DNA of 33,215 nucleotides from the NCBI GenBank assembly GCA_016867335.1, contig VGJU01000016.1, positions 1 through 33,215 on the forward strand, written 5' to 3'. This document shows, piece after piece, positions 2,949 through 31,702 of the stretch. How positions within the stretch are numbered: position 1 is the first letter of the stretch; each line of letters opens with the position of its first letter. Both the position numbers and the translations under genes were made by a program. Source of the DNA: Candidatus Zixiibacteriota bacterium. GTDB lineage: Bacteria; JAAXHH01. The notes under the pieces are model-generated. The model was given only the letters and a program-made list of their open reading frames with translations, did not search any database and was not told the DNA's origin.

Positions 2949-3009
2949 GCCGATTATCCCGTAAGAAGGAAACCTTTTGCGTAATTTGCATCAAAACGCC
3001 GCACAAGGA

Positions 3010-3726: not shown

Positions 3727-3790
3727 AGGAGGCGCGAGGAGGATAAGAGGACGGTTTTTAAAACCCGCCCGGCGTGGTATGGGTGTGCGA

Positions 3791-5521: not shown

Positions 5522-7333
5522 TTATCGGATAAGCTGGTACACGGCGATGCGCGACGAGTCGGCCGGCTGCCGGAAATGATGAAACCAGAGTTCGGGGCGG
5601 TTGTCCCACAGCGCATTCGGGTAGGGCAGGTCGATCTTTCGGTACGAGGTTTCCAACAAAGTACGGACCTCCGGCGATGGCGCAACATGATAGCCCGGAT
5701 GCAACACAACCCAGTCGGGACGTATACTCGAGTCGCTCAGAAGATGCTCTGGAAGCAAAGCCATCGGTGTATAAAACATGAGAGGAACGGACCCGTAGTC
5801 GATGATGACCGTATCGTCTGGCGTTCCGTACCGGTTCAGATAGGTGGAAACGCCTTCTATCACCCCTTCGTAGGGGTGCGTCAATTCATGGAAATACTCC
5901 AGCGGATACGAACGAAACCGAGCCAGTTTTTCTACAGCTTCGTCGATCACCACCATACGATGAAACCATGCACCCTTCGGGGGCAGCAGGCGGTTTATGC
6001 CGGTCCGGACCGCCCACGGCGATTCGCTTAGAAAGACACCCGCTTCGTACGCCGAAAAAGGCAACATGCGTAACGCTGCCGCCGGAAGCGCATTAAAAAT
6101 ACTGGTTCCCCATGCCAGCGCAAGACAAACGACGGCAAAACGGGGAAATCGCCCGAAAAGTCGGTAAAAACACAACACGACACCCACAATGACCAACGGA
6201 GCCAAACCGGACATGTAACGTATTTCGTCCGAAGGGCTTAGCAGAGCCAGTGTGAGAATTACGCCGGCGGGCAGCATCCATACGAGGTGTAGAGGCGGGT
6301 GTTCAACAGGGCGACAGACCCTCCGAATACCCTGTCCAAGCGCGGCCAAGAAACAGGCAGCGGTCAGATAAGGAAAAAAAGGGAGATTGATTGTGGCTCC
6401 CGCCATGACAACGCCTCCTGCTAAGCAAACCCATCGCCAAAACCGTTCCGTACGGTCGAAGGCCAACCATCTGACTATCGACAACACCAGGGGAGCGGTA
6501 AAATTTTCGAAAAGACGCGCGCTCAACGTCCCCAGATAGGTTCCTACCTTCTGAAGACTGAACCATGCATAGCCGTGTGTCCAGAATTTTGCATACAGCA
6601 CCCAGGGGACCGTTCCGGCCAGAAAAACCGCTCCTGTCCATGCGACGGTAGTCCATGGGATATGTCGGCGGTACACCGTAAGCCAGTGTATCCCAAGTCC
6701 GATCAGGGTGCCAGCACATACTACGTAGTGGCTATGAAAAAGGGCGATCGCCGCGAGGGTAAAATAAATACCGGCATAACGCCGCTTTTCACCGAGACCC
6801 AGATAAGCCCACACCAGCAAAAGGGTGGCGAGGATAACCAGGGCGTAGTATCGGGATTGCCGGAAATACAGCAAAAAGGGAATGCTGAGGGTAAGCAGCC
6901 ACGGCGCGAGCGCCTGAACCCGAAAATCCGGTGTGAGACGACGCACGACCGCCGGATAAAGCCCGATGGCGGCAAGTCCGCAGAGTACGAAAGGTAGCCG
7001 CGCGGTAAACGTATCGACACCAAACACCAGAAAAGAGGCCGCGCATACATAATACTGAAGCCACGGCAACACCACTTCGGCGTACGCTTCGTTGTGAAGC
7101 GTCGGATAATAGGCCATCAGATTCCGCCCGTCAAACATGCGGGGATAGCCGTAGGTAAGGATGTTCTTGCCAAGTACCGCCGTCTCTGCCTCATCCATCC
7201 ACAGATAGGTTTCATCCAGGTTGGGAAAAAGCAGAAGCGCGCCGACGAGCATCAGCAAAACCGTCCGAAACCGTTCGTAAGGGGGTGCCCCCGCAAGCAT
7301 CGCCATGATAGAGCCAACCCGTGCGGTGTTCAT
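5522..7333 (-). CDS. Polytopic GT39/PMT-like membrane glycosyltransferase
   Basis: A 603-residue integral membrane protein. Its first hydrophobic helix (residues 24-37) is followed by WMDEAETAVLGKNI, with D47-E48 in the position of the catalytic/metal acidic pair of GT39 (PMT/ArnT) GT-C enzymes. About a dozen hydrophobic segments follow, including RQSRYY after the fifth or sixth, a motif common in this family, and then a soluble C-terminal domain of about 130 residues. The start chosen is the ATG at 7333, which shares the sequence ATGA with the stop of the upstream gene; a further upstream start at 7390 would only add overlap. Expected role: transfer of a sugar from a polyprenyl-phosphate carrier to an acceptor on the periplasmic face. 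The gene directly downstream is a DPM1-like enzyme that could make that donor. Confidence 0.85.
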   Translation of the reverse strand: MNTARVGSIMAMLAGAPPYERFRTVLLMLVGALLLFPNLDETYLWMDEAETAVLGKNILTYGYPRMFDGRNLMAYYPTLHNEAYAEVVLPWLQYYVCAASFLVFGVDTFTARLPFVLCGLAAIGLYPAVVRRLTPDFRVQALAPWLLTLSIPFLLYFRQSRYYALVILATLLLVWAYLGLGEKRRYAGIYFTLAAIALFHSHYVVCAGTLIGLGIHWLTVYRRHIPWTTVAWTGAVFLAGTVPWVLYAKFWTHGYAWFSLQKVGTYLGTLSARLFENFTAPLVLSIVRWLAFDRTERFWRWVCLAGGVVMAGATINLPFFPYLTAACFLAALGQGIRRVCRPVEHPPLHLVWMLPAGVILTLALLSPSDEIRYMSGLAPLVIVGVVLCFYRLFGRFPRFAVVCLALAWGTSIFNALPAAALRMLPFSAYEAGVFLSESPWAVRTGINRLLPPKGAWFHRMVVIDEAVEKLARFRSYPLEYFHELTHPYEGVIEGVSTYLNRYGTPDDTVIIDYGSVPLMFYTPMALLPEHLLSDSSIRPDWVVLHPGYHVAPSPEVRTLLETSYRKIDLPYPNALWDNRPELWFHHFRQPADSSRIAVYQLIR

Positions 7334-8463
7334 CCCTTTCCCGCTGCTTTCCGATATATTTCCATCGTCCTTTCCGCAGTGTTGGGCCATGAAAACTTTT
7401 TTACATGTTCAAGCCCTTGGCGTATCAGGGTGTTTCGCCAGCCCCCATCGTCCAGTATCCGTTGCATGGCCTCAGTCAACCCTTCGACGTCTTCCGGTTC
7501 GATCAGCACCCCGGCATCCTGGACCACTTCGGGCAGCGAACCGCGCCGAGAGGCGATAACCGGACACCCGCACCGCATCGCCTCGACTACGGGCAGACCA
7601 AACCCCTCGTAGAGCGAGGGAAAGACAAACAAAGCCGCCCGGTTGTACAGCGCTACCAGTTCGGGGCTTTCGTTTTGCAATCCGCTGATAAACCGTACCC
7701 GGTCTTCTTTTCCTGCTCCGGAAAGACGGTCGGTCAGCGAAGCCGGATAGGTCTCTCTACGCCCGACAAGCGCCAGATGCACCGACCGAGGAAGACGGTT
7801 CCATGCTTCGACAAGCAGTTCTATGTTTTTGTGTACGTTGTAGTTGCCCACGTAGAGGACAAACGGGTCGAGCAGGTTGTATGGGCGCAGGAGGTTTTCG
7901 GCGACCGAGGGTTCCATGATGTGAAAATGTTCCCCCGGCGCCATGGGGATGACGTCGATACGCTCCGGAGGGATGTCCGCATATCGCGCCATGTCCTGCC
8001 GCGTGTTGTTCGATACGGCGATCAGACCCGCAGCCTTTCGTAATGCCTTGATCTGCCAACCGAATGCGCGTGCGTCCGCGATAAAACGAAAATGCGGTAT
8101 GATAAACGGATGAAGATCCTGTACCGTGACGACCACGGGGCAGGGTTGGACAAGGGGGACACCGAGTTCCCAGACCTGTGTAAGCGCGCCGGTGGCGTGA
8201 AACACGTCGAGACGGCTCCGCCACATATCTATCGGCAACAGCGTCTGTTCCCAGAAGGCAATATGCGAAGAGGGCGGACGACGGATACGTACGGTATCGA
8301 AAATCTCGAAGCCGGGCACTGGGACGCCGTCGAGCGCAAAATACCGCCACTCGTCCGTGTTTTCCAGTTGCATTAAATGACGAACAAGATGATAGGTGTA
8401 GGTTCCGATCCCCGCTCCTCGATGGGCTGTCTGGAGCGGGCGTAGATCAACGCCGATACGCAT
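7330..8463 (-). CDS. Glycosyltransferase family 4 (GT-B)
   Basis: A 377-residue GT4 enzyme from the ATG at 8463, where the protein begins MRIGVDLRPLQ, the usual start of this subgroup; an ATG 39 bases upstream is possible but adds 13 residues unlike the family. GAGIGTYTYHL (residues 16-26) is the glycine-rich acceptor-side loop. The C-terminal half holds YVGNYNVHKN, LVGRRE, and the donor-binding EX7E motif in LYEGFGLPVVEAMRCG, followed by PVIASRRGSLPEV, all typical of mannosyl-, rhamnosyl- or glucosyltransferases using nucleotide sugars. It acts at the cytoplasmic face. Its TGA overlaps the ATG of the following GT39-like gene by 4 bp. No good Shine-Dalgarno precedes either start. The sugar transferred is not determined. 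Confidence 0.9.
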   Translation of the reverse strand: MRIGVDLRPLQTAHRGAGIGTYTYHLVRHLMQLENTDEWRYFALDGVPVPGFEIFDTVRIRRPPSSHIAFWEQTLLPIDMWRSRLDVFHATGALTQVWELGVPLVQPCPVVVTVQDLHPFIIPHFRFIADARAFGWQIKALRKAAGLIAVSNNTRQDMARYADIPPERIDVIPMAPGEHFHIMEPSVAENLLRPYNLLDPFVLYVGNYNVHKNIELLVEAWNRLPRSVHLALVGRRETYPASLTDRLSGAGKEDRVRFISGLQNESPELVALYNRAALFVFPSLYEGFGLPVVEAMRCGCPVIASRRGSLPEVVQDAGVLIEPEDVEGLTEAMQRILDDGGWRNTLIRQGLEHVKKFSWPNTAERTMEIYRKAAGKG

Positions 8464-8526: not shown

Positions 8527-9495
8527 CTATGCTGGCACTTGCCGGACGAAACGCCGGTTTCTCTTGTCTGTCAGCGCGTCGACCAGAGACAGACCGTATG
8601 CCATCCATACCGAAGGGGTATATCGGCGTTTTATCAGATCGGTCAGGAACAACGCCGGAAATAGCCGGAAGGCATACAGCACCGCCACCTTGAGCATGGC
8701 CCCTCGTCCGAAGTGTTTTCTTACTACGATAAGCCAATTTCTGTACCAGTAGTACTGTCCTGCCGGGTTTCCGCGTCGCTTTCGGTCTTGCAGGTTGATG
8801 CTGGCCGAAACCCGATGCCACACCCCCACCTCCGGGACGACGACGCAACGATACCCGTTTTTTTGCGCGCGAAGCGACCAGTCGAAGTCTTCGTGGATCA
8901 TAAACAGACTGGCATCCAAAAGTCCTGTTTCCCGGATTGCGGAGACACGCAGGAGCATGGCGCACCCCACGACGGCGTCCACGTCGTAGGGTGCGGCGGG
9001 AAGTGCTTCGACCGGTGCGCCGCAGTACATAAGACTCGACGTCGTATTTTCGATCGACAGACCGAACAGGCGTCCTTTGCCTATGGCCAGTCCGGCGCAC
9101 CACAGCGTGCGGGGTGCATCCGCATAGCAGATGGCAGGGCCTGAGACGGCGATACGCTCATCTTTTTCCATGGCGGCGACTAGTATCTCCGGTAGATGGG
9201 AACTGACCGTCGTATCGTTGTTCAGAAGCAAAACATAGTCGGCGGTGTCGAGTACGGCCCGAATTCCGATGTTGTTGCCTTCTGCAAAACCCGTGTTGAC
9301 CGGATGGGCGATCAGTCGTACCATGGGAAACTGCCTACGTATGGCCTCGACCGAGCCGTCCTCGGAGCCGTTGTCAACTACGACCACCTCCAGCGGCGCA
9401 TAGGAGATCGCTTCTGTAGACTTGAGACATGCAAGCGTATCTTCCAGACCGTTCCAATTTAAAATAATAAGCGCAACACGCGGTTTAGCCGACAT
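8527..9495 (-). CDS. Family 2 glycosyltransferase, rhamnosyltransferase (WbbL)-like
   Basis: A 322-residue GT2 enzyme with IILNWNGLEDT (residues 10-20), VVDNGSEDGS (39-48), NTGFAEGNNIGI (67-78) and LLNNDT (90-95), the NND motif that replaces DXD in the WbbL/RfbF rhamnosyltransferase-like clade. HEDFDWSLRA near 200 carries the Glu-Asp catalytic region. A C-terminal hydrophobic helix (residues ~265-285) may anchor it to the inner membrane. It is 45 bp downstream of the homologous GT2 gene at 9541-10494 and shares its motif order, so the two look like diverged paralogues. Rhamnose transfer would fit the RmlD gene in the same cluster, but NND-type enzymes use several donors, so this is only a suggestion. 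No ribosome-binding site stands out before the ATG. Confidence 0.88.
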   Translation of the reverse strand: MSAKPRVALIILNWNGLEDTLACLKSTEAISYAPLEVVVVDNGSEDGSVEAIRRQFPMVRLIAHPVNTGFAEGNNIGIRAVLDTADYVLLLNNDTTVSSHLPEILVAAMEKDERIAVSGPAICYADAPRTLWCAGLAIGKGRLFGLSIENTTSSLMYCGAPVEALPAAPYDVDAVVGCAMLLRVSAIRETGLLDASLFMIHEDFDWSLRAQKNGYRCVVVPEVGVWHRVSASINLQDRKRRGNPAGQYYWYRNWLIVVRKHFGRGAMLKVAVLYAFRLFPALFLTDLIKRRYTPSVWMAYGLSLVDALTDKRNRRFVRQVPA

Positions 9496-9540: not shown

Positions 9541-10494
9541 CTACCGTGGCAGCATGGGCAGAAACCAGCGCTCGAACTCCGCGTCGTCGATGCGCCGACT
9601 GCGTTGCACTTGTCGTCTTTTGACAAACATCCGAGGGATTTTTCGGTACGTGTCCCATTTCATCCTTAGCCAGCGTATCTCTTCACGCCGTAGATGGGTT
9701 TTCCAGAAGACAAATTCCTGTTTTAGAAAAGGGAGTAGTCTGGGGCGAAGAAACGGGCCTGGGATTCCTTTGATATATAGCCAGACGATGTTGCGGAAGA
9801 GGTGGTATTCGGTAAAAAAGGGGAGCGACTTGCTGGTGCCTCCGGAAACATGGCGACAGACGGCGGAGGGGATATACAGGCACTTCCATCCGGCAAGACG
9901 GGCACGCCATGCCAGATCTACGTCTTCGTAGTAGGCAAAGAAATCTTCGTCGAACCCTCCGAGAGTTTCGAATACCATCCTGCGGTACAGTCCCGCCCCT
10001 GCGTTGGGGCCGAACACTTCCTCAACCCGGTCGTACCGACCGTCGTCCGGCTCGCCTCCGCCCCGGTCCGTCGGCATGTGATCTTTTGCACCGATACCGG
10101 CGTTTACGATCAAGGGCGGTTCGTCGAAACTGATGATTTTGGGGGCGCAGGCATAGATTTCCGGATGCCCCTCAAGCGCTTCCACAAGCGTGCTGATACA
10201 GTCGGGGGCCATCTGGGTGTCATTGTTTAGCGTCATGACAAAAACGCCGGACGATGCGGAAATCCCGATGTTGTTAGCTTGTGCGAATCCTCGGTTGGTG
10301 TCGAGCGCAATAAGACGGACGTTTGGAAACCGTTCTTTTACCAGTTCGACCGAGCCGTCGTGCGAACCGTTATCGACCAGAATCGTTTCTATGTTCGGAT
10401 AACGCTGGGTCAGAACGGCCTCGAAACAGCGCGCCAGATATTCCTTGCGATTCCAGTTGACCACCACCACAGACACCCGCGGTCGTTCCGCCAC
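9541..10494 (-). CDS. Family 2 glycosyltransferase, rhamnosyltransferase-like
   Basis: A GT2 enzyme of 317 residues when started at the GTG at 10494-10492, which follows a GGGGG ribosome-binding site (10503-10507, spacing 8) and lies 2 bp after the stop of the radical SAM gene. A more distant in-frame ATG at 10758 would overlap that gene by 262 bp and is rejected. Motifs: VVVVNWNRKEYLA (9-21), VDNGSHDGS (40-48), NRGFAQANNIGI (67-78), NNDT (90-93), and YYEDVDLAWRARL near 180, giving the complete GT-A set of the WbbL-like clade. The tight spacing to the radical SAM gene suggests coupled translation and perhaps a shared substrate. The C-terminal ~50 residues are Arg/Lys-rich and may contact membrane phospholipid. 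Donor sugar is unknown. Confidence 0.88.
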   Translation of the reverse strand: MAERPRVSVVVVNWNRKEYLARCFEAVLTQRYPNIETILVDNGSHDGSVELVKERFPNVRLIALDTNRGFAQANNIGISASSGVFVMTLNNDTQMAPDCISTLVEALEGHPEIYACAPKIISFDEPPLIVNAGIGAKDHMPTDRGGGEPDDGRYDRVEEVFGPNAGAGLYRRMVFETLGGFDEDFFAYYEDVDLAWRARLAGWKCLYIPSAVCRHVSGGTSKSLPFFTEYHLFRNIVWLYIKGIPGPFLRPRLLPFLKQEFVFWKTHLRREEIRWLRMKWDTYRKIPRMFVKRRQVQRSRRIDDAEFERWFLPMLPR

Positions 10495-10496
10495 GG

Positions 10497-11564
10497 CTAC
10501 AACCCCCGAGAAAAAAGACAGTCTCGGCAGACTTCCGGAAGCCCTATACCCGTCTCGTTGGCCTTGCGAAACGCCGTATAATCGGGTTTGTTCCAAATGC
10601 TCAAAAAATCTTCTTCGAGCAAATTTCCCATCGTCGCTTCGTGGGCAAACTTTTTCTGTCCCTGAAACACGTATTCGTACGGATGAAAAAGATTGCAACA
10701 GGGGCGCAGATTGCCCTCCCATGTAACGACAAAATGTTCGTGGGGGCGGTAGCTGCACGGACCGGGTTCTTTCAGGATAAATCCCGGCAGTTCAAGGTTG
10801 ATGCCGAGTTCAGCGGCCGTTTGTTTGGCTTTTTCTATGGCCTCCTTCTCCTCCGGGTTTATGCCGTTGTATAGCGGAAGCGTCCGCTCCATCTCCTCGT
10901 TCCATGTAAATACGTTTTCCGCGTTGAGCGTAGGAATCTCGAGTTCATGACAAAGACGCACCACATCCGATAGTTCCCGGACATTGGTTTTCATCAACAC
11001 CATACCCATGGCGATCCAAGGGCGCTGAACATTGAGTGCCTTCTTAGCCTCGATCAGACGCCGGATATTGCGTTGCACCTTGTCAAACCGGGCATTTACC
11101 CGGATGGATTCGAATGTCTCCTTGGTGCCGCCGTCTATGGAAAAGGCTATGCTGTCGAGACCGGAGTCGATGAGTTTGTGTGCGATTTTGTCCGTCATAA
11201 TCGTGCCGTTGGAAGTCATGTTGACCCCGACGAACTTCGATTTGGCATGGGAGATGATCTGGTCGATCTGTGGGTGCATCAGGCTTTCGCCGAGACCGAT
11301 AAAGTTGACGTTTCGGATATAAGGGAAGATGGCGTCCGCCACCTTGTGGTACGTCTCCATCGGCATCAGTTTGAGCGGTTCGGGTGTAATGCCCTCCTGG
11401 CGGGGGCAGGTGATGCAGTCCAGGTTGCATACGGCGCTTACTTCGATCCATGCCGAGTCGAGTGGGCGACGAACCGCTTGTCTTTGACCGAAATAGACCC
11501 GGCGTTCTTCCGGGTCTCGAAGCAGTTGCGCCGCACGTTTGAGCTTTCTTGTCAGGTCCACCAT
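10497..11564 (-). CDS. Radical SAM protein with SPASM-like C-terminal domain
   Basis: A 355-residue radical SAM enzyme. The 4Fe-4S/SAM-binding motif CX3CX2C is C46, C50, C53 (VCNLDCITCPR), followed by GLGESLMHP (the GGE-type SAM contact), MTSNGT and AFSIDGG, the standard order of the partial TIM barrel. The C-terminal region has a Cys in PCSYRPH, the pair in LRPCCNLFHP, and CRDC near the end, together with MGNLLEEDFLSIWN, as in SPASM or twitch auxiliary-cluster domains. I start at the ATG at 11564 because AAGGA lies 7 bases upstream and the longer frame to 11738 would cross the end of the next gene. SPASM proteins usually modify peptides or, in fewer cases, sugars and aminocyclitols. In a polysaccharide locus a glycan or nucleotide-sugar substrate is likelier, but this is inference. 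Confidence 0.9.
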   Translation of the reverse strand: MVDLTRKLKRAAQLLRDPEERRVYFGQRQAVRRPLDSAWIEVSAVCNLDCITCPRQEGITPEPLKLMPMETYHKVADAIFPYIRNVNFIGLGESLMHPQIDQIISHAKSKFVGVNMTSNGTIMTDKIAHKLIDSGLDSIAFSIDGGTKETFESIRVNARFDKVQRNIRRLIEAKKALNVQRPWIAMGMVLMKTNVRELSDVVRLCHELEIPTLNAENVFTWNEEMERTLPLYNGINPEEKEAIEKAKQTAAELGINLELPGFILKEPGPCSYRPHEHFVVTWEGNLRPCCNLFHPYEYVFQGQKKFAHEATMGNLLEEDFLSIWNKPDYTAFRKANETGIGLPEVCRDCLFSRGL

Positions 11565-11608
11565 GTATCTATCCTTGATCGGTCCGCAGTGGGGTTTGTG
11601 CGCTGGGT

Positions 11609-12757
11609 TCAGGCGTTGACCGGTGTTTCGGCGTGTGTGTGCGTCTCGGTCTTTGGCGCTTCGCCGTAAGCGTGTCCGCGCGGCAGAATGCGGGTCAGAT
11701 TCTCCTTGCACAACACCCGGTGCGAACATTTGTCGCAAAAATCGATCATCTCCTCACCGGTCAAGAGCGAACGGCGAAGCTGTTTCATCTGCGGACCGTT
11801 CCAAATGTCCTTCCATGAAGTCTCGTAGAGGTTGCCGACCTGAATAGTGTCGGCATAAACCGCTCGGCAACAGGGACGCACCGCCCCGTCCCAGTTGACC
11901 CACAGCGAATCGAAGGGGAAGTGGCAGAAATATTCGGTTTTGTCAAGCGGTGGAAGCACCAGATTGACACCCACCTCTTTGGCGCGTTTGCGCGCGATTT
12001 CGAAATGGGTCTGCGCCAATTCCACATGATTGAACAAAAGTTCTTCGATCAGGTAGTCGGCGTGGGCTTCCATGTGCGCCACGTACATGTTTTTCACATT
12101 TAGAGAAGCGGCGACATCCACCAGTTCGACCGTCTCGTGGACGTTTTTGCGCATCGCTACCATGGCAATCGAAACTTCCGGCTTTGTCACCCCATATTCG
12201 GCTTTGACTTCGTGGAGCGTTTTGATGTTTTCGATAAGTTTTTCGACCGGGATGCCGCGAATTTCCTTGAACGTGCTCGTGCCGTCTATGGATATTGCGA
12301 TTTCGTCGGCGCCTAGTTGGACCAGTTTTTCGCAGTTTTTTCGCTTGAGCAGTACGCCATTGGAGTTGAACGTCACGTGACAGTCGTACTGTTTGACCCG
12401 TTCGAGCATTTTGTAAAACGTTTTGCTGAGTAGGGGCTCCCCGAAGATCTGAAGGATAACCTTGGGCGAATTTTCCAACATGGGAACGATTTTTTCAAAC
12501 AGTTCCATCGGGATGTCGTCTTCGGGATTTTCCGCTTCGTCCCAGTAGATACGGGCGCAAAACTCGCATTTCAGGTTGCATCGGTTGGTGGGTTCTATGG
12601 CGATGACCTTCGGAGGAAACACGTTTACTCCACCGGTCATTCGGGCAATAGGAAACATCAGGTGGTTCCGGAGACGAAGCATGGTTTTGCGTTTCAACTC
12701 ATGCCGTCCTTTGGAGGAACCAAGCAGTCCCAGTGCTTTTACGGCTTTATGGATCAT
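11609..12757 (-). CDS. Radical SAM/SPASM-like protein
   Basis: A 382-residue protein with CX3CX2C at C60, C64, C67 (RCNLKCEFCAR), then IFGEPLLS (SAM-contact GE motif), FNSNGVLL and ISIDGTS, the canonical radical SAM series. Its C-terminal part has YFCHFPFDSLWVNWDG, RPCCRAVY, VGNLYETSWKDIWNG and a closing CDKCSHRVLC, which supply enough cysteines for at least one auxiliary iron-sulfur cluster. A charged 48-residue N-terminal extension precedes the barrel. The last ~20 residues are Thr/His/Glu-rich (TETHTHAETP) and look disordered. The ATG at 12757 has AAAGGG about 8 bases upstream. It is followed 44 bp later by a second radical SAM gene. In this context it probably modifies a sugar residue or precursor; no peptide-precursor gene is visible nearby. 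Confidence 0.9.
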   Translation of the reverse strand: MIHKAVKALGLLGSSKGRHELKRKTMLRLRNHLMFPIARMTGGVNVFPPKVIAIEPTNRCNLKCEFCARIYWDEAENPEDDIPMELFEKIVPMLENSPKVILQIFGEPLLSKTFYKMLERVKQYDCHVTFNSNGVLLKRKNCEKLVQLGADEIAISIDGTSTFKEIRGIPVEKLIENIKTLHEVKAEYGVTKPEVSIAMVAMRKNVHETVELVDVAASLNVKNMYVAHMEAHADYLIEELLFNHVELAQTHFEIARKRAKEVGVNLVLPPLDKTEYFCHFPFDSLWVNWDGAVRPCCRAVYADTIQVGNLYETSWKDIWNGPQMKQLRRSLLTGEEMIDFCDKCSHRVLCKENLTRILPRGHAYGEAPKTETHTHAETPVNA

Positions 12758-12902
12758 GGGATAAACCCTTTATATGAAAGGCGACGTGCTCCTCGAATCG
12801 CGCGGTAATACAACGACGCCGAACCTCAAACTATCCTGTTTTCCGTACCCGTATGGTCGGTTTTGCATCCTCCCCGGCTGGTCTTACCTTACCATCCGAG
12901 AG
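12758..12902. other. 145-bp intergenic gap, no gene seen
   Basis: This stretch separates the RmlD stop from the radical SAM start. I see no open frame with a family resemblance, no hairpin followed by a T-run, and no clear promoter. It is the second-largest gap in the operon. A TATAAA-like hexamer lies about 15 bases before the downstream ATG (minus strand) without a matching -35 box. Confidence 0.4.
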
Positions 12903-13772
12903 TTAGGCGCAAGCCCAGCGTTTGTGCAGATACTCCTTGAGTCCTTCCTCCCAAGTTCTAAGCGGTTTTATGCCAAGTGTCCGAATCCGTTTGTTATCGA
13001 GTACCCCATAGAGCGGGCGGCGGGCCTTTGCCCCAAAGGCGGCAGTAGAAACCGGCTCGACGACGGCGTCTATCCCGGCTATCCGATATATGGTGCGCGT
13101 AAAGTCGTAGTAGGAACAAGCCCCGTTGTTTGTAATGTGCCAGGTCCCGTATGCGTCGGTTTCGATCAGCCGGGCCAGCGTTTCGGCAAGGTCCGCCGTA
13201 TAGGTGGGCGCCAGAATCTGGTCGCAGACGACGGAAACCCGCCCCCGTTCGCGTCCCAACTTGAGCATCAGATCGACGAAATTATAGCCCTTTCCGCCTC
13301 CGCTTTGCTGCTGGGACAGTCCGTAGAGTCCGGCGGTGCGGATGAGAAAATGACGGGGGCATAGAGCACGGACAAGATGCTCTCCCGCCAGTTTGGCCGT
13401 CCCGTATACGTTTACCGGGCCGGGCAAATCCTGTTCGTCGTAGGGGTTGTCCGCCGTGCCGTCAAACACGAAATTGGTACTCACATGTACTAGCGTGATC
13501 CCCAAGCCCCGGCAGGAAAGCGCGAGGTTGCGAGGGCCGAGTGCGTTGACCGCAAACGTTTTTTCCGGATACGACTCGCATTCGTCCACTTTGTGATACG
13601 CCGCCGTGTTGATCACCATATCCGGTCGGTGAGCGGAAAGCACCGTCTCGACCTGATCGGCGTCGGTAATGTCGAGTTCCTCATGACTGCAGGGAACAAG
13701 GCTATGCGTGTTGAGTGTATGTTGCAGATCGACACCGAGTTGTCCTCGGCAGCCCGTGATCAGTAGGCGCAT
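12903..13772 (-). CDS. rfbD: dTDP-4-dehydrorhamnose reductase (RmlD)
   Basis: A 289-residue SDR-fold reductase. From the ATG at 13772 it begins MRLLITGCRGQLG, the GXXGXXG dinucleotide-binding loop of RmlD, with DITDADQV, NTAAYHKVDECE, the Ser of HVSTNFVFDG and a YGTAK catalytic pair. NAL and GTWHITNNG near the C-terminus also match the family. It catalyses the last step of dTDP-L-rhamnose synthesis, NAD(P)H-dependent reduction of dTDP-4-dehydro-L-rhamnose. An ATG 42 bases upstream would overlap the preceding gene, so the shorter start is preferred; it leaves a 4-bp gap. RmlA, RmlB and RmlC are not in the window. The normally conserved D in the ST-D-YVFDG motif is Asn here (STNFVFDG). A related reductase acting on another keto-deoxy sugar is the alternative. 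Confidence 0.87.
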   Translation of the reverse strand: MRLLITGCRGQLGVDLQHTLNTHSLVPCSHEELDITDADQVETVLSAHRPDMVINTAAYHKVDECESYPEKTFAVNALGPRNLALSCRGLGITLVHVSTNFVFDGTADNPYDEQDLPGPVNVYGTAKLAGEHLVRALCPRHFLIRTAGLYGLSQQQSGGGKGYNFVDLMLKLGRERGRVSVVCDQILAPTYTADLAETLARLIETDAYGTWHITNNGACSYYDFTRTIYRIAGIDAVVEPVSTAAFGAKARRPLYGVLDNKRIRTLGIKPLRTWEEGLKEYLHKRWACA

Positions 13773-13776
13773 GTCG

Positions 13777-15048
13777 CTATGTCTGCGGTGAATGGGTTTT
13801 GGCCGATTTGACACGGTGATAGAAAGCAGATTGTTTGAATCTGAGCATCATCCTTCCGATGCGATCGTCGAGCGGATGGATACTTTGGTCAAGCATAGAG
13901 GGCTGGCCGACACGTTTGACCGGATTCCGGCAAAAATCCGCAAGCGGCTTCGCCATTCTGTCCCAGGTAAAACATTCCTTTACCAGATGTCGAGCATTTT
14001 GTCCGTATGCCGCGGTCGTGTCCGGATCGTCCAACACTTGGTCGATCACCCGATCCAGTCCGTCGAGGTCCGAGGGGTCGAGCGTCCAGCCTGCTTTGCG
14101 GTCGCGGATAGGCGAAGAAAGCTCCGAATAGTCGTTGAAGATGACCGGTAGTCCGCACCAAAGCGAAACGACGGTACGATGCGGAAACGCCAGTTCTCTC
14201 TCCACGTTGCGTTGCATCAGGTCTATGGCTACCGAACACTTCAGCGATTTTTCCACATAGGTCTCGAAGGGAAGCAGTCCTATGACTTCCACGCGGGGAT
14301 GTCGTTCGATTTCCTTGGCCAGGGCCGCTGTATTTCCCGTGGGAAAGGCATAGGAAGGGTGCATGCCCCCTATGAGCACCAGCCGTCCTTTTTTTCGGTA
14401 TTCCAGACGGTTTACCAGCCGGCGCAGGATAGCGGTCGGATCCTGCCAGGGAAGAAAAAGACCCGCGTGCAAAAAAACGGGTTCTTCCGGGAAGGGCGGC
14501 ATCCGATTCGGCAGGGCGGGATCGAGTCCCATACAGGCTACGTCGAGCGGCGGTGCGGTCAAATCGTATCCGGCCATCATGAGCCAAGGCAGAAAGTAGT
14601 TTTTTTGGACATGCCCTCCGCAAAGAAGATAATCCGCTTTTTGAAGCGCGTTTATTTTTATCCATGGCATCGACACCGGATCCTGAAACCGGCTGTACAG
14701 ATTTTCCAGCAGATACGGTCCCGTCAAATCGATGACCAGCGCCCTGTCGGGGCGGGGAGTTAAAAGATTCACCCATGTCCACCCAGTAAGCAAAACCACC
14801 GTCGGGGCCGCTTGTTCGACGCACCGGTCGAGTTCGTGGTAGGCAAAAGGCAAAATGGCAAGGTCCGACGACGGGGTTGACGGAAGAATGTCGTGCGGAA
14901 TCGCGTATACCGTGTCGATGCCATGTGCCCGCAAGCCCTGTCCCATGGCCCAAGCGCGCAGCCCCACGCCCGTGGCGGGCTGTCCCTGAAGCGGCAGCGG
15001 TTGCCCGCATACAATCAGTACGCGGGGGGAACGTGTATCGGCGGCCAT
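13777..15048 (-). CDS. Glycosyltransferase, GT-B fold (GT4-like)
   Basis: A 423-residue protein that reads as a GT-B glycosyltransferase. The N-terminal half has RVLIVCGQPLPL, a glycine-containing GVGLRAWAMGQGL loop, and LLTGWTWVNLL. The C-terminal half has FLHAGLFLPWQDP, LVLIGGMHPSY, a FETYVEKSLKCSVAIDLM region, and HRTVVSLWCGLPVIFND, where the donor site would be, with an Asp/Glu-poor version of the usual EX7E motif. It is a more divergent member than the other GT4 genes here, and its donor is unknown. The ATG is 3 bp after the stop of the radical SAM gene upstream, so the two are probably co-translated. A longer frame of 474 codons exists on the same strand in another phase, but it is Arg-rich without recognisable motifs and is rejected. 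Confidence 0.78.
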   Translation of the reverse strand: MAADTRSPRVLIVCGQPLPLQGQPATGVGLRAWAMGQGLRAHGIDTVYAIPHDILPSTPSSDLAILPFAYHELDRCVEQAAPTVVLLTGWTWVNLLTPRPDRALVIDLTGPYLLENLYSRFQDPVSMPWIKINALQKADYLLCGGHVQKNYFLPWLMMAGYDLTAPPLDVACMGLDPALPNRMPPFPEEPVFLHAGLFLPWQDPTAILRRLVNRLEYRKKGRLVLIGGMHPSYAFPTGNTAALAKEIERHPRVEVIGLLPFETYVEKSLKCSVAIDLMQRNVERELAFPHRTVVSLWCGLPVIFNDYSELSSPIRDRKAGWTLDPSDLDGLDRVIDQVLDDPDTTAAYGQNARHLVKECFTWDRMAKPLADFCRNPVKRVGQPSMLDQSIHPLDDRIGRMMLRFKQSAFYHRVKSAKTHSPQT

Positions 15049-15051
15049 ACC

Positions 15052-16146
15052 TCAGACGGCGACTTCGCGCAGGGTGGCTGTTTTGGCGTTTCCTTCCACC
15101 AAATGAAATTCGCTTTTTCGGAGCAACTGACATCCTTCGCAGGCGGACGGAACCACCCCCCTGCCAAATTCGTCCCGGAATGTCGTCCATGTAGACGTAT
15201 TCCAGATCGTTTCGAACGAGTCCTTGTGGATGTTTCCGAACACCAGACCGGAATTTTTGATATAAGAGCCGTCGGGAATCATACGGGGGGTGGGATGTCC
15301 CAAGTTGACGCACGGCGAGATGTCTCCCGTAGCGGCCACATAGACGCCACCCTGCTGCATGGGTACGCAGGTGTTGGTAAAACCGTATTCGAAGGTAGGC
15401 AAAAGCAACCGCGCGCCGCGTTCTTCGGCAACCAACCGTGCTTCGTTAAATTTTGCTTCGAGTTCGTCGTAAGGAATAGACGGCTGATCGTCCGAGAAAG
15501 TAAACAGAATCTGTTCGACATCATCCGGTTTGGAGACCACATCCTGATTTTTGATGTGGATTTGATCAAAGCCGATATCGCTTGCCAGCTCGACAAACGC
15601 GGGTACTTCGGCAAAGTTGGCCCGATTCATGGTAAAGGTGGTGGACAGAAAAGGCCCGTGGTAGGTTGGTGTTTTGTACTCTTCGCGTAGTTTTACGAAG
15701 TGCCGAACGTTGTTTACCACTTTGCCGAGGTCGCCGCCGATGCGAATCCCGGAGAACGTCCCCGGATCGGCACCGTCTATCGAAACAAACATCCAGTTGA
15801 CTTGGGCCTCGAGCAGTTTGCGTCCCCGTTTGTCGTCGAGCAGCGTTGCGTTGGTGATAAACCCTGCCGTACAACCCTGTTCTTTGGAGATGCGGATCAT
15901 CTCAAAAAGCTGTTTGTGCAACAGCGGTTCGCCCCAGCCGGTCAAATCTACGTTGTCGTAGTTTTTAAGCGCCGGGACCAACTTCATAAAGGCTTCCATG
16001 GCAAGATCGCGGGGCTTGTAGTCGTACGAAAGACGAGGACAGGTAACACACAGCAGGTTGCAACGATCCGTCGATTCGATCACGATGGATCGGTAGGGAC
16101 GCGGTTTGTGGAGCATTCTTCTCAATCGACTGTATATGCCAAACAT
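15052..16146 (-). CDS. Radical SAM/SPASM-like protein
   Basis: A 364-residue radical SAM enzyme with CX3CX2C at C29, C33, C36 (RCNLLCVTCPR), then LTGWGEPLLH (GE motif), FITNATLL and VSIDGAD. The C-terminal part carries TCVPMQQGGVYVAATGDISPC, VNLGHPTPR, VFGNIHKDSFETIWN and a final CEGC, a SPASM/twitch-like cysteine layout with fewer Cys than the two other family members in the cluster. An AGAGGAG ribosome-binding site lies 7 bases before the ATG (16154-16160), one of the strongest in the window. It is immediately followed (3-bp gap) by a glycosyltransferase gene. Likely cytoplasmic, oxygen-sensitive, and acting on a precursor sugar or a small peptide/lipid substrate; the true substrate cannot be inferred. 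Confidence 0.9.
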   Translation of the reverse strand: MFGIYSRLRRMLHKPRPYRSIVIESTDRCNLLCVTCPRLSYDYKPRDLAMEAFMKLVPALKNYDNVDLTGWGEPLLHKQLFEMIRISKEQGCTAGFITNATLLDDKRGRKLLEAQVNWMFVSIDGADPGTFSGIRIGGDLGKVVNNVRHFVKLREEYKTPTYHGPFLSTTFTMNRANFAEVPAFVELASDIGFDQIHIKNQDVVSKPDDVEQILFTFSDDQPSIPYDELEAKFNEARLVAEERGARLLLPTFEYGFTNTCVPMQQGGVYVAATGDISPCVNLGHPTPRMIPDGSYIKNSGLVFGNIHKDSFETIWNTSTWTTFRDEFGRGVVPSACEGCQLLRKSEFHLVEGNAKTATLREVAV

Positions 16147-16213: not shown

Positions 16214-17854
16214 TTACTTTTCCGATACCGGCTGAAGGAATCTCAATTTTCCCACGTATCGGCGAAACAGTGCCCGGTCGTAGCAGTCTAAATAGCTGGT
16301 TTTCAGAACGAAGATGGTATAAAGCGCAAAAAAGATCAGCGCTTCCGTCCCAAACAAAAAGAGCGCCGCAGGGCGATGCGTCGGGTCGAGTAGAGCCACC
16401 GCGCCCTGTTGGGTGATAAAAACGAGAAAACCCGCCGCAAGGCTCGCCCCGATGGGCACGGTATACATCCGGTGAAGAAACGGCAGAAGCGGCTGACCGA
16501 GATAGGTGTGAAACAGACGGTAAAAATACAGCGCGCATACGGTCAGCGAGACCGTCGAACCGATGCCAGGCCCGTAAAACCCCATAGTATGCACCAATCC
16601 CGCGCTAAGTGCTACCGTAAAAACGGCAAGCGCGATTCCGAATTTCATTTCGTATTCCGGTTTGCCCATACCGACAGCCACGCCCGTGGCTACTCCGGTG
16701 CTCAGGTTGGCGTAATAACCGATAGTAAGCAGTTGGATCAATCGGGTCGCTTCCGGAGCCAGATGATATTCGGGACCGAGCCACGCCAGCATGATGAGCG
16801 GGGCGGCGATAATGGAAAACATGCAGATAGGTGTGCCGATCAGCACGAGATAGCGCGTTCCTCGTTCGTAAAATTCGAGAGACCGCTCTTTTTCGTTTCG
16901 CGCTTCGAGTTCCGCCGTGGCGGGGATGACGGCCGATGGAAGCATCAGCACCACGTTGCGTATGCTTCCGATAAACCCGGCGGCAAACGAGTACGGCGTT
17001 ACCAGACCGACGTGAAGAAACCGGGAGACAAGCAGGCTGTTGAGTTGATAGGTCAACAGATTGGCCAGTTTGGCCACCTGAAGCTTGGTTCCGAAACCGA
17101 ACATCTGGCGGAACATCGTCCATTCGGCCAGAAAAGGGTTCAGCCGCAAACCGGGCATCAACGCGCTTGCGGCCACAACGGTCACGACGGTGCTGATCAC
17201 AGCCACTACACCGCTGCTCACCACCAGACCCCGAAGACCATAGCCTCCCTCCAGCGCGATTACTGTCCCCACGACACCTAGCGTGGACGCGCCGATGTTG
17301 ATTTTGTTCAGCGTGTCCATGCGCTGTAGCCCGATCATGATCATTCCGTATACCGATGTAGCCATGCCCCACCCAAATATGACGATCGAACCTATTACCG
17401 CAAAAACGGCCGTATCAAAATTTTCCTGGCCGATACGGTCCGCCGAAAGCCCCAAAAGGGGCATGAGATACGGATACCCTACCACAACCAACGCTACGAT
17501 GCTTAACGCAAAAAAAACATAAAAAATCAATCCGATATTGAAAACTCTGTTAAAACACGCCCAGTCCCGTTTGGTGTAATACTCCGCAAAGTATTTGTCG
17601 AACGACCGAGCCAGTCCAAAGTCCAGAAGACCAAAGTAGCCCGTCAGAATACCTACGACGGACCATACACCGGCGAGATCGTTGCCGATATGATGCCAGG
17701 TATAGGGCGTAATAAAAAAGCGTATACCCATACCCCATACCATGCCGAACACGTTGAACAGCGTATTGCGGATGACTTTTCCGGAGAAACTCTGACTGGC
17801 CGGAGCCGCGGGTCCGGCGCCGGAAGGTGTAGACGCTTCGAGGGCTTTTTCCAT
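16214..17854 (-). CDS. Lipid-linked oligosaccharide flippase, Wzx-type (MOP superfamily)
   Basis: A 546-residue polytopic protein with about 12-14 hydrophobic segments after a Pro/Ala/Ser-rich cytoplasmic head (residues 1-23). The first helix region NTLFNVFGMVWGMGIRFF, the loop FGLLDFGLARSFDKYFAEY, and WLGPEYHLA late in the protein match polysaccharide-biosynthesis flippases (Wzx/RfbX). These proteins move undecaprenyl-diphosphate-linked oligosaccharide repeat units from the cytoplasmic to the periplasmic face of the inner membrane, driven by an ion gradient. The ATG follows the TAG of the aminotransferase gene by 6 bp, with GAGGG about 9 bases upstream. As the only MOP-family transporter seen, it marks the locus as Wzx-dependent rather than ABC-transporter-dependent. 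Confidence 0.9.
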   Translation of the reverse strand: MEKALEASTPSGAGPAAPASQSFSGKVIRNTLFNVFGMVWGMGIRFFITPYTWHHIGNDLAGVWSVVGILTGYFGLLDFGLARSFDKYFAEYYTKRDWACFNRVFNIGLIFYVFFALSIVALVVVGYPYLMPLLGLSADRIGQENFDTAVFAVIGSIVIFGWGMATSVYGMIMIGLQRMDTLNKINIGASTLGVVGTVIALEGGYGLRGLVVSSGVVAVISTVVTVVAASALMPGLRLNPFLAEWTMFRQMFGFGTKLQVAKLANLLTYQLNSLLVSRFLHVGLVTPYSFAAGFIGSIRNVVLMLPSAVIPATAELEARNEKERSLEFYERGTRYLVLIGTPICMFSIIAAPLIMLAWLGPEYHLAPEATRLIQLLTIGYYANLSTGVATGVAVGMGKPEYEMKFGIALAVFTVALSAGLVHTMGFYGPGIGSTVSLTVCALYFYRLFHTYLGQPLLPFLHRMYTVPIGASLAAGFLVFITQQGAVALLDPTHRPAALFLFGTEALIFFALYTIFVLKTSYLDCYDRALFRRYVGKLRFLQPVSEK

Positions 17855-17860
17855 GCGCAG

Positions 17861-19114
17861 CTACCCTCTTTCCAAAGCGAACGACGCCTCCAGCATCTTT
17901 TCCGTGGTCAGGACGACCTCTTCGACATCGGCGGTGCTCATTCCGGGATAAAGGGGTAGGGTAACCTCCTGGCGGGCGACGGATTCCGTGATGGGAAGCA
18001 TCCCCTCCCGGCATCCAAAGCCTTCCCGATAGTACGAAAACAAATGCGTCGGAGGATAATGAATGCTGGTCTGAATTCCCGCTTCGCGCATACCATCCAT
18101 AAATCTCTTACGGTCTATCCCTTTTGCCAACAAAACCGGGCAGATATGATGTGATACCGGTTCATCGGGCAGACCGAAAGGGACTTGAATCATAGGGAGA
18201 CGGACGAGGTTTGTCAAGTACCTTTGCATAAGGTCTCGTCTTCGCTTGTTATTGTCGGCCAAACGGTTAAGCTGTATGAGACCAAGCGCGGAACGCAGTT
18301 CGTCGATCCGATAGTTGAATCCAAGACCGGTGACATCATAGGAATGGGCGTGTCCACGTATCCGGTCCCAGGTAACGGTTGTCATGCCGTGCGACCGCGC
18401 CCTGCGCATACGCTCGGCCAGCTCGTCGTCTCCCGTTACGATCATTCCCCCCTCTGCGGTCGTCATGTTCTTGTTGGGATAAAAGCTGAAACACCCTATA
18501 TCCGAAAGCGTGCCCGCGCTCCGACCTCGGTACATAGATCCGGGGGCATGGGAGGCATCTTCGACGACATAGAGACCATGCGCCCGTGCGATTTCCATGA
18601 TCCGGTCCATGGCGACCGGATATCCCGCATAATGCACCGCCACGATACCACGGGTGCGAGGGGTGATTTTGCGTGCAACGTCTTCCGGGTCGATATTCAA
18701 ATCGTGAGGACCAACGATATCCGCAAAGACGGGCGTTGCACCCGTATAGAGGACGCTGTTTGCCGTGGCTACAAAAGTCAACGCAGGAACGATCACCTCG
18801 TCGCCCGGCCCCACCCCCATGGCGTGATGCGCCAGATGAAGCGCCGCAGTGGCGTTGGTCACGGCCAACGCGTGACGCGCACCGGTAAATTTGGAAAAGG
18901 CGTCTTCAAATTGCTCCGTAACCGCCCCCATGGACAACATGCCGGAAGCGATCACCCGTGTGACGCTTTCTATTTCTTCGGGGCCTATGTCCGGCTCGAA
19001 GAGTCTAAGTCTCCAAGCTATCTGAGCGATTTCCGTCTCTCGTGTTTTCCGTAAACCGTTTTTTTTCTGCCCTATCCGATTCGTGATCCGTATGGATTCG
19101 GCAGATACTGACAC
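17861..19114 (-). CDS. DegT/DnrJ/EryC1/StrS-family PLP-dependent sugar aminotransferase
   Basis: A 417-residue fold-type I aminotransferase. The PLP lysine is K215 in YPNKNMTTAEGG, D186 in VVEDASHA contacts the pyridine nitrogen, and TNATAALHLA (86-95) forms the phosphate-side loop; RIDELRSALGLIQL is the usual C-terminal family motif. The enzymes convert 4-keto or 3-keto nucleotide sugars into amino sugars with glutamate as donor. Here the substrate is most likely the 4-keto-6-deoxy product of the LegB-type dehydratase two genes upstream (LegC/DesI-like role), by inference. The start is a GTG at 19114, directly after the TGA of the methyltransferase; no other start codon precedes the first family motif. 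It gives a 34-residue charged N-terminal extension, which is unusual, so the true start could be slightly further in. Confidence 0.9.
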   Translation of the reverse strand: MSVSAESIRITNRIGQKKNGLRKTRETEIAQIAWRLRLFEPDIGPEEIESVTRVIASGMLSMGAVTEQFEDAFSKFTGARHALAVTNATAALHLAHHAMGVGPGDEVIVPALTFVATANSVLYTGATPVFADIVGPHDLNIDPEDVARKITPRTRGIVAVHYAGYPVAMDRIMEIARAHGLYVVEDASHAPGSMYRGRSAGTLSDIGCFSFYPNKNMTTAEGGMIVTGDDELAERMRRARSHGMTTVTWDRIRGHAHSYDVTGLGFNYRIDELRSALGLIQLNRLADNNKRRRDLMQRYLTNLVRLPMIQVPFGLPDEPVSHHICPVLLAKGIDRKRFMDGMREAGIQTSIHYPPTHLFSYYREGFGCREGMLPITESVARQEVTLPLYPGMSTADVEEVVLTTEKMLEASFALERG

Positions 19115-19819
19115 TCAACCGTGTTTCTTTTTGGCGACTACATAGACGATATAAGGGCATCCCATGTAAAACCAATCGTGATGGACATTTTCGACGGCAA
19201 GATTGTGTGCGTTCAACATCCGGATAATCCGGGGAAGCGTCTGATAGGTGTTCCAGAGCAATTTTTGGCCTGTAAGAAACGAAAGCCAACTGACAGGCAA
19301 AACGGCCAGGTATTTGAATTTTCGCTCCGAAAATACATAGTGCAGATACAACCCCAGTCCGTGAAAACCTATCAGTACTCGTCCTCCGGGGCGGCACACC
19401 CTAGCCAACTCGCCGATCAGGCGGTAATCGGAGGGGACGTACGAAATCAGCAACGAGGCGATGACCAGATCAAACCGCTCATCCTTCACCGGGATGGCCA
19501 GCGCATCGGCATAGAAGAGACGAACACCGAGTTTTTCTACCCCGAGTCTGCGGACCGATGCCAACATCTCTCGGCTGTAGTCGCCACCGACCAGCCGTGC
19601 CGGTTGTTCCTCGGCGCACACCTTAAGCCATTGTCCCGGACCACACCCCACATCGAGTACGGAACTGTCTTTTAGCGACAGACCGGTTTGTGCAAGACGC
19701 TCGCGGTAAAATGCCAGCCGCTCCGGTGTATAGGCCGACATCACGTAATCGGTCTGCCAGTCGGTTTCCGTGTGCGACATCAACCGGCGGTTCAACCCGA
19801 CCAGCCACCCGGGTTTCAT
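19115..19819 (-). CDS. SAM-dependent class I methyltransferase
   Basis: A 234-residue protein with motif I VLDVGCGPG at residues 54-62, an acidic residue in GGDYSREML after the second strand, YADALAIPVKDERFDLV (motif II/III) and LARVCRPGGRVLIG, the standard Methyltransf_11 series. Substrate-binding C-terminal parts are hydrophobic (LYLHYVFSERKFKYL). It should transfer a methyl group to a sugar hydroxyl, amine or carbon; lying between a 4,6-dehydratase and an aminotransferase gene, it may act on the same nucleotide sugar. The ATG at 19819 shares an ATGA with the stop of the dehydratase gene. A start at 19867 would only duplicate coding of its C-terminus. O-, N- and C-methylation cannot be separated from sequence. 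Confidence 0.86.
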   Translation of the reverse strand: MKPGWLVGLNRRLMSHTETDWQTDYVMSAYTPERLAFYRERLAQTGLSLKDSSVLDVGCGPGQWLKVCAEEQPARLVGGDYSREMLASVRRLGVEKLGVRLFYADALAIPVKDERFDLVIASLLISYVPSDYRLIGELARVCRPGGRVLIGFHGLGLYLHYVFSERKFKYLAVLPVSWLSFLTGQKLLWNTYQTLPRIIRMLNAHNLAVENVHHDWFYMGCPYIVYVVAKKKHG

Positions 19820-20796: not shown

Positions 20797-21518
20797 TCCG
20801 GTTCTTCTCCGATAAAATCCGTTCTGCGCTGGATAAAAAGATCCGTCGCCTGCTGATAGTCGTCATGCCGACCGATATCGAGCCAGAGGTCCGTGCACGG
20901 ATAGGCGATCACGCGCTCTTTGCGTTCCAACAGACGCAATACCAGATGATTAAAATCGAGCCGTACACCCGACTCGATACAGCCCAACACTTTTGGTTCG
21001 AAGACGTAGATCCCCATGCTAACCCGGTAATCTACCGATGGTTTTTCAATATAGTCCGTTAGCTCATGGCTGTCGTTGACGTGCATCACACCCAGATCGA
21101 TTTTCTGCTGTTTGGTGTGCATAGCGATGGTAAGTACCCCGCCCATCTGGTGGTGAAAGTCGATAAGACGGCGGTAATCGAGCGAGGTCAGCACGTCCCC
21201 GTTCATCATGAGAAACGTTTCTGTAAGACCGTACTGTTCATGGATAAGCGAAAGCGGCCCGGCTGTACCGAGCGGAACCGGTTCGCGGGCATACGAAATG
21301 GGAAGACCGAAACGGGAGCCGTCTCGATAGTAGGCTTCCAGCAATTCGGCCAAATATCCGACCGACAGGATGATTTCGTCGATGCCGCTACGCCCCAGTT
21401 GGCGAATGACGATGTCGAGAATAGGTCGATCGTCCACCGGCATGAGCGGTTTGGGAAGAACTGCGGTATACGGGGCAAGCCGCGTGCCTTTGCCGCCCGC
21501 CAGAATAACGGCTTTCAT
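20793..21518 (-). CDS. Sugar-phosphate nucleotidyltransferase (NTP_transferase family)
   Basis: A 241-residue protein starting MKAVILAGGKGTRLAPYT; the LAGGKGTRL loop (residues 6-14) binds the NTP phosphates and K23 in PKPLMPV is the conserved lysine. MNGDVLTSLDY holds the metal-binding Asp, and YIEKPSVDY, GIYVF and WLDIGRHDDYQQA complete the family pattern. Members form an NDP-sugar from sugar-1-phosphate and NTP. The protein ends after the catalytic domain, so there is no acetyltransferase beta-helix, unlike GlmU. Because the next gene encodes a LegB-like dehydratase, the product is likely its substrate (a PtmE/LegF-like or mannose/glucose-1-phosphate-type role). Base and sugar remain undetermined. 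Four-base ATGA overlaps occur at both ends. Confidence 0.89.
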   Translation of the reverse strand: MKAVILAGGKGTRLAPYTAVLPKPLMPVDDRPILDIVIRQLGRSGIDEIILSVGYLAELLEAYYRDGSRFGLPISYAREPVPLGTAGPLSLIHEQYGLTETFLMMNGDVLTSLDYRRLIDFHHQMGGVLTIAMHTKQQKIDLGVMHVNDSHELTDYIEKPSVDYRVSMGIYVFEPKVLGCIESGVRLDFNHLVLRLLERKERVIAYPCTDLWLDIGRHDDYQQATDLFIQRRTDFIGEEPE

Positions 21519-27096: not shown

Positions 27097-27156
27097 CGTC
27101 ATCGTCTCCTGCCCCACATCCTTTGGGGCGCTACTGCAACGCGTGCTGCTGTGCGA

Positions 27157-28080: not shown

Positions 28081-28127
28081 CCGGTTATGTTTTCTCCCAG
28101 CCGCTTCCGTGTCCATGACCGTTCGCG

Positions 28128-29105: not shown

Positions 29106-29131
29106 AGAAACCTCATACAAGAGCCAATTTG

Positions 29132-31691: not shown

Positions 31692-31702
31692 GGGCAGATG
31701 AT

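Follow-up and report, generated by a model that had tools for sequence, protein, structure and literature searches.

Radical S-adenosylmethionine (SAM) enzymes that act on sugars are known so far mostly from antibiotic pathways. BtrN is the 2-deoxy-scyllo-inosamine dehydrogenase of the butirosin pathway, DesII is a deaminase of nucleoside diphosphate (NDP)-amino sugars, and BlsE is a cytosylglucuronate decarboxylase. BtrN is a Twitch enzyme that oxidises an aminocyclitol; its cluster is fully ligated and has been proposed to take up an electron in the course of this two-electron oxidation (PMC9012708). NeoN, which acts at C-5', converts neomycin C into neomycin B with Cys249 supplying the hydrogen (PMC10991966), and AviX12 catalyses an unusual epimerisation for a sugar of avilamycin (PMC8234114). 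A Brachyspira rfb plasmid carrying at least six radical SAM (rSAM) genes, without any function assigned to them, was published in 2014 (PMC4267127); apart from this report, no study of such enzymes in polysaccharide synthesis was found in the open-access literature. Here, we describe three rSAM genes (rSAM1, rSAM2, and rSAM3) from a stretch of 33,215 nucleotides (the window), which is the complete contig C16 (VGJU01000016.1) of a 4.38-Mb draft genome (G000) from a marine member of Latescibacterota, an uncultured phylum of bacteria. It is proposed, with a probability of roughly 55%, that the block at 9541-16146 forms a module for tailoring sugars within a surface-polysaccharide cluster of the Wzx/Wza/Wzc kind, in which the three enzymes edit ring carbons, likely of a lipid-linked sugar.

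The Three Radical SAM Proteins

The genes lie on the minus strand at 10497-11564 (rSAM1, 355 residues), 11609-12757 (rSAM2, 382 residues), and 15052-16146 (rSAM3, 364 residues), as an initial annotation made from the sequence alone had placed them. It had also ascribed to each protein a CX3CX2C motif and a C-terminal cysteine-rich region, and both were found again with Pfam profiles and cysteine patterns: Radical_SAM (PF04055) scores 63, 68, and 49 bits for rSAM1, rSAM2, and rSAM3 (cut-off 29.5), and SPASM 54, 57, and 40 bits (cut-off 21.5). The CxxxCxxC motif reads CNLDCITC in rSAM1 (C46/C50/C53), CNLKCEFC in rSAM2 (C60/C64/C67), and CNLLCVTC in rSAM3 (C29/C33/C36). The auxiliary cysteines are C270/C289/C346/C349, C278/C296/C341/C344 (with an extra C350), and C260/C279/C336/C339, respectively, following in all three the pattern CX12-13GX4C...CX2C, which corresponds to cysteines one to four of the seven in SPASM.

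The SPASM domain is defined by seven cysteines, the first four arranged as CX9-15GX4C...CX2C, and Twitch is its truncated one-cluster version (PMC6231123). Taking into account this definition and the four-cysteine pattern, rSAM1-3 are Twitch proteins with a single auxiliary cluster. A full seven-cysteine SPASM domain, with two auxiliary clusters, was ruled out: rSAM1 and rSAM3 end at the CX2C, and rSAM2, the only one with CX2CX5C, does not have the subsequent CX3C. To judge from these patterns, the four cysteines could fully ligate the auxiliary cluster, as in BtrN. Outside the clusters, each protein has a further conserved cysteine (C205 in rSAM1, C126 in rSAM2, and C92 in rSAM3) that could act as a hydrogen donor, which is taken as a lead and not as evidence.

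Conservation of the Cassette

Downstream of rSAM1, after only 2 bp (10495-10496), lies a gene for a GT2-family glycosyltransferase (GT) at 9541-10494 (PF00535, 104 bits), and 3 bp past rSAM3 (15049-15051) lies one for a GT4-like enzyme at 13777-15048 (PF00534, 29.1 bits, cut-off 26.4). Both close junctions had been pointed out in the initial annotation and are real. The further suggestion that each pair is one functional unit did not hold, as the pairs are not separate: rSAM2, which has no adjoining GT, and a gene for an rmlD-type dTDP-4-dehydrorhamnose reductase at 12903-13772 (TIGR01214, 298.9 bits, cut-off 224) belong to the same conserved block.

This block was compared with those of two other Latescibacterota, G002 (same family, another genus) and G015 (same order, another family). 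The order GT2-rSAM1-rSAM2-rmlD-GT-rSAM3-wzx-aminotransferase-4,6-dehydratase is kept in G002, in a run bounded by the left GT2 and the nucleotidyltransferase, and in G015 as far as its 8.3-kb contig reaches. Identity amounts to 79% for rSAM1 (G002), 71-76% for rSAM2 (G002, G015), and 77-82% for rSAM3 (G015/G002). The GT2 beside rSAM1 is 61% identical in G002 and the GT paired with rSAM3 48-49% in both relatives, each at the same position; the flippase, which adjoins rSAM3 in both, is 58-63% identical, the aminotransferase 65-71%, and the nucleotidyltransferase 75% (G002), and the 4,6-dehydratase is also conserved in G002. rSAM1 and rSAM3 (77-82%) are better kept than most GTs, the flippase, and the sugar enzymes (48-75%), the far-left GT2 (82%) being the only shared gene of the block conserved to the same degree. 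Since the 28 radical SAM matches of the 4.38-Mb genome would yield 0.016 random triples within a 5.65-kb span, and since the arrangement is kept in two other genera, the triple is beyond chance.

As regards distribution, rSAM3 is present in 3 of the 16 genomes of the phylum and missing from all 12 genomes of one genus. A scan of genome contigs with two exact peptide patterns, which by their exactness give no measure of family spread, returned only two loci already known, JABIQT010000700.1 (a record named Candidatus Latescibacterota) and CAJXCW010000024.1 (a metagenome-assembled genome of an uncultured bacterium), and a scan of IMG/VR returned distant relatives only. When 62 homologues were placed in a quick tree, with moderate supports (93, 90, and 85), rSAM1, rSAM2, and rSAM3 fell in three different places, rSAM2 grouping with a protein of another phylum, an rSAM encoded in an ABC-exporter locus. 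Their separate placement implies that they are not recent copies of each other, and the duplication of one rSAM into three is therefore unsupported.

Radical SAM Genes beside Glycosyltransferases in Other Loci

A different, fourth rSAM, around 36% identical to rSAM1 over its N-terminal part, stands between a GT2 and a GT4 in nearly all Latescibacterota loci inspected (L085, on contig C241 of G000, at 2315-5406; L104-L110; L011-L018, L020, L034, L036, L037, and L040); G014 shows only the rSAM-GT4 part, and some contigs stop before one flank. In the fully annotated G001, a polyprenyl synthase gene lies upstream of this unit and genes for an MsbA-like exporter and a GT9 lie downstream, and the resulting GT2-rSAM-GT4-MsbA-like-GT9 arrangement is an operon resembling those for the lipooligosaccharide core. 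Another phylum (G055, G060, and G059) has a common O-antigen-type locus encoding Wzm, Wzt, an rSAM, a GT2, a B12-type rSAM, and further Twitch/SPASM rSAMs, with identities of 39-53% (L044, G055:C57, 1397-11256; L159, G060:C48; L160, G059:C162). Besides the GT2, this locus has five rSAM genes, four of the Twitch/SPASM type and one whose product binds cobalamin; in G059, where the contig is cut, the locus is covered as far as the contig ends.

The recurrence of rSAM-GT adjacency, which the initial annotation had proposed as a check, thus stands for the orthologous loci of three genera and for these other rSAM-GT loci, and among distant homologues it reaches just p = 0.056, as detailed below.

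Three rSAM genes were also observed beside an ABC-2 exporter membrane protein (L052, G050:C119, 7297-13324) and, in another genome, beside GT4/GT2 genes (L103, G057:C7, 3279-14479). In the genome under study, a 3.3-kb contig (L084, G000:C344, 1781-3310) holds two adjacent Radical_SAM matches that were missed by the profile built from the three rSAMs of the window.

Family Membership and Fold

In the search against NCBIfam, none of the three proteins reaches the cut-off of any family, including the curated rSAM families for ribosomally synthesised and post-translationally modified peptides (RiPPs). The best model for all three is TIGR04317, with 190, 173, and 168 bits against a cut-off of 380, and the BlsE family, TIGR04466, is matched with 36 bits (cut-off 400). 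By these scores, rSAM1-3 belong to no known peptide-maturation family. The observation that no small peptide precursor is visible was also borne out: the intergenic gaps, of at most 145 bp and differing between genomes, hold no conserved small open reading frame.

When solved structures were searched by sequence, BlsE, SkfB, BtrN, PqqE, and MoaA were matched with weak E-values. The best fold match of the rSAM3 model (mean pLDDT, the predicted local distance difference test score, 69.6) is DesII (Z 21.7, root-mean-square deviation 3.8, 295 residues aligned), with PqqE, BlsE, and SkfB next at Z 19.6-20.2. For the rSAM1 model (mean pLDDT 73.0), the best match is BlsE (Z 22.4, root-mean-square deviation 3.2, 282 residues aligned), with SkfB at Z 21.0 and DesII at Z 20.3. 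BtrN is matched at Z 15-17.

Proposed Function and Alternative Explanations

Because the proteins fall in no known maturation family and no precursor was found in the gaps, because rSAM and GT genes adjoin in a conserved way, and because further rSAM-GT loci exist, a sugar is the best reading for the substrate of rSAM1-3. This agrees, from context and families, with what the initial annotation had taken as the simplest reading; the domains, the motifs, the gene order with its conservation, and the separate branches of the three in the quick tree are shown by the data, and the sugar substrate itself, the lipid-linked stage, the reaction type, and the identity of the edited sugar are all points that we infer.

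It is proposed that each rSAM would reductively cleave SAM at its CxxxCxxC cluster and that the 5'-deoxyadenosyl radical would take a hydrogen from a carbon of the sugar ring. The single Twitch cluster, probably fully ligated by cysteines, might accept or relay an electron, as has been proposed for BtrN. Most likely, a carbon bearing an OH group would end up oxidised to a ketone, or an unactivated carbon would be inverted through the return of a hydrogen; in the former case, the short-chain dehydrogenase/reductase (SDR) encoded between rSAM1 and rSAM3 could reduce the ketone. As to the order of events, most likely a GT would transfer an ordinary sugar onto the repeat unit on its lipid carrier, the rSAM coupled to this GT would edit this sugar in place, and the flippase would then export the product. 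Editing of the lipid-linked form before export is favoured because rSAM1 and rSAM3 are coupled to GTs presumed to add the target sugar, and because NeoN and AviX12 provide precedents for radical editing inside an oligosaccharide; on the best reading, radical tailoring of glycan sugars would probably take place after transfer.

Several observations weigh against this proposal. Gene adjacency does not order the steps, and editing at the nucleotide-sugar stage fits as well. The close homologues offer no known substrate or activity, and many distant homologues are found away from GTs, in other contexts. Within 5 kb, a GT is encoded at 9 of 28 loci of distant homologues and at 4 of the 33 arbitrary loci used as a control (p = 0.056 by a one-sided Fisher test, a rough one in which the loci were picked by hand and the GT profiles were home-made). 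A general enrichment of GTs around the homologues is thus suggestive only, and the argument is carried by the specific conserved loci. In the quick tree, rSAM1 is placed beside tungsten-enzyme maturases (support 90, not starred). As for the structure models, their mean pLDDT is just 70-73, and PqqE and the RiPP maturases SkfB and SuiB trail DesII and BlsE by only about 1.4 to 2.6 Z units; although the two sugar enzymes top the lists, the fold thus does not decide the substrate.

The main rival is that the rSAMs act earlier, on nucleotide sugars, as DesII does, an NDP-4-amino-4,6-dideoxysugar being deaminated or deoxygenated before its use by a GT. It has this standing since the cassette has the enzyme types for such a substrate: a nucleotidyltransferase, a 4,6-dehydratase, and a DegT aminotransferase, the types that make the substrate of DesII in the desosamine pathway, are all encoded there and all kept in G002, and DesII tops the folds of rSAM3. 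However, the window shows no second aminotransferase, the tightly coupled genes are those for GTs and not the one for the aminotransferase, and a single step of this kind would not require three unlike rSAMs. In addition, DesII is merely 1.5 Z units above PqqE for rSAM3 and is tied with or under BlsE, SkfB, and SuiB for rSAM1. Taking all this into account, we consider action on nucleotide sugars possible, if rather doubtful.

It is improbable that the enzymes modify the lipid carrier, or the aglycone of a glycolipid, in place of a sugar. Prenyl-lipid genes are near, namely PcrB (prenylglyceryl phosphate synthase family, 30912-31907) and the polyprenyl synthase beside the phylum-core rSAM-GT unit, and GDGT-MAS, a lipid enzyme, is among the fold matches; however, PcrB is 15 kb off, beside alaS and outside the conserved cassette, and GDGT-MAS ranks well below the sugar and peptide enzymes. 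Nor is there much chance that RiPP-type peptide maturases happen to lie in a polysaccharide locus. SPASM/Twitch enzymes are often RiPP maturases, and SkfB and SuiB are near in fold, but the family scores and the gene context (no cut-off reached, no small conserved open reading frame, and conserved neighbours that are glycan genes) leave such a membership unsupported.

Very low, too, is the probability that the three belong to the tungsten-oxidoreductase maturases (TIGR04317/TIGR04311) and serve aldehyde oxidoreductases encoded elsewhere. TIGR04317 is their best model, rSAM1 branches beside true members, and the genome has three AFOR_N matches; nevertheless, even the highest score is no more than half the cut-off, whereas the true members found in this analysis score 460-502 bits, no tungsten oxidoreductase gene occurs in the window, the three AFOR_N matches being confined to contigs C102 and C83, and the neighbours in three genera are glycan genes. 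TIGR04317 membership was consequently rejected. Finally, a mycofactocin-like system, in which a redox cofactor made by an rSAM is glycosylated by the adjacent GT2, has MftF as the best NCBIfam match of the GT2 at 9541-10494 in its favour and is largely excluded by the scores (MftF, 90.8 bits against 280; MftC, 51 bits for rSAM1 against 265), the precursor MftA not being found in the genome by a search without a positive control.

Gene Content of the Polysaccharide Cluster

According to Pfam and NCBIfam profiles, the three genes are part of a single polysaccharide cluster on the minus strand, which extends from about position 29 kb to the left end of the contig. Its first part encodes Wza (27157-28179; PF02563, PF10531) and Wzc (24883-27117; PF02706, PF13614), both of the export machinery, a WecB-type epimerase, a GT4, a protein without family match, a sugar-1-phosphate nucleotidyltransferase (20793-21518; PF00483, 142.7 bits), a LegB-like NDP-sugar 4,6-dehydratase (19816-20796; TIGR04180, 415.6 bits, below the cut-off of 475), and a SAM-dependent methyltransferase (19115-19867; PF13649/PF08241, 71 bits). 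These are followed by a DegT/DnrJ/EryC1 sugar aminotransferase (17861-19114; PF01041, 403 bits), a Wzx-type flippase (16214-17854; PF13440, 46.6 bits), rSAM3, its GT, rmlD, rSAM2, rSAM1, the GT2 adjoining it, a second GT2 (8527-9495; PF00535, 63.5 bits; 61% identical in G002), and a GT4. Towards the left end lie a protein of 622 residues, more GT2s, another SDR, and a weak PMT_2-like protein. Flippase, Wza, and Wzc are all present, as in a Wzx-type polysaccharide locus. The 622-residue protein (5522-7390), a candidate Wzy, has no Pfam or NCBIfam match and is 55% identical in G002; its position suggests a polymerase or a GT-C. The methyltransferase occurs only in the cassette of this genome, being missing from those of G002 and G015, and is a candidate for strain-specific methylation.

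The rmlD of the cassette is the only reductase above the TIGR01214 cut-off in G000, G002, and G015, and L-rhamnose is therefore a plausible sugar of this polymer. As rmlC (PF00908) was not found in the G000 assembly, the replacement of the epimerase RmlC by an rSAM was considered; it was dropped, since G002 and G015 share the cassette and yet have RmlC, and the absence of RmlC from G000 is probably an assembly gap.

To the right of the cluster (28128-31907) are encoded an LPG_synthase_TM-type membrane protein, a PorV/PorQ-family protein, and the PcrB mentioned above.

Relevance and Comparison with Known Systems

If the rSAMs act on polysaccharide, an entire type of step is overlooked when capsule and O-antigen structures are predicted from genes, and uncultured phyla would supply enzymes able to invert or oxidise unactivated carbons of sugars. 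In the conserved cassettes, concrete GT-rSAM pairs are at hand for testing. Only tentatively can it be put forward that surface glycans in several bacterial phyla undergo in-place editing by dedicated GT-coupled Twitch/SPASM rSAMs, as a tailoring system so far undescribed. It would comprise the three enzymes of the window, each recruited separately, the one of the nearly phylum-wide operon resembling those for the lipooligosaccharide core, and the five rSAMs of the Wzm/Wzt locus in the other phylum. Were this true, sugars out of reach of the usual SDR, aminotransferase, and methyltransferase routes would be formed, for instance when unactivated carbons are inverted or oxidised once the sugar has been transferred.

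The maturases TIGR04317 and TIGR04311, the best NCBIfam models, share the domain layout of rSAM1-3, which nevertheless score far under their cut-offs and lie in a locus without an oxidoreductase partner. DesII and BlsE are the top folds of rSAM3 and rSAM1, respectively, and their substrates are of the sugar-nucleotide type; however, identity is 15-18%, and DesII has an extra N-terminal region, the alignment beginning at its residue 126-129.

The three proteins are in no curated family; the idea of an undescribed glycan-modifying system is tempered by the multi-rSAM Brachyspira plasmid published in 2014. In the rfb region of pBHWA1 from Brachyspira hyodysenteriae, several radical SAM/SPASM genes likewise lie among GT, rfbABCD, SDR, and nucleotidyltransferase genes, so that rhamnose genes also accompany the rSAMs there, although the proteins are 24-29% identical and the gene order is another.

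NeoN and AviX12, likened here by description and not by sequence, edit a sugar of an oligosaccharide antibiotic, and their clusters contain GTs (PMC10991966, PMC8234114), their products being, however, secondary metabolites and not surface polysaccharides. BtrN, recovered by both sequence and fold, combines, like rSAM1-3, a radical SAM domain with a Twitch domain whose auxiliary cluster has four cysteines, as judged from the sequence pattern, and its substrate is a polyol. Unlike rSAM1-3, to which it is around 20% identical, it acts on a free aminocyclitol in an antibiotic pathway and has no GT partner. On the best reading, what is new in the Latescibacterota locus is that sugar-acting Twitch rSAM enzymes, known from antibiotics, are placed in the synthesis of a surface polysaccharide.

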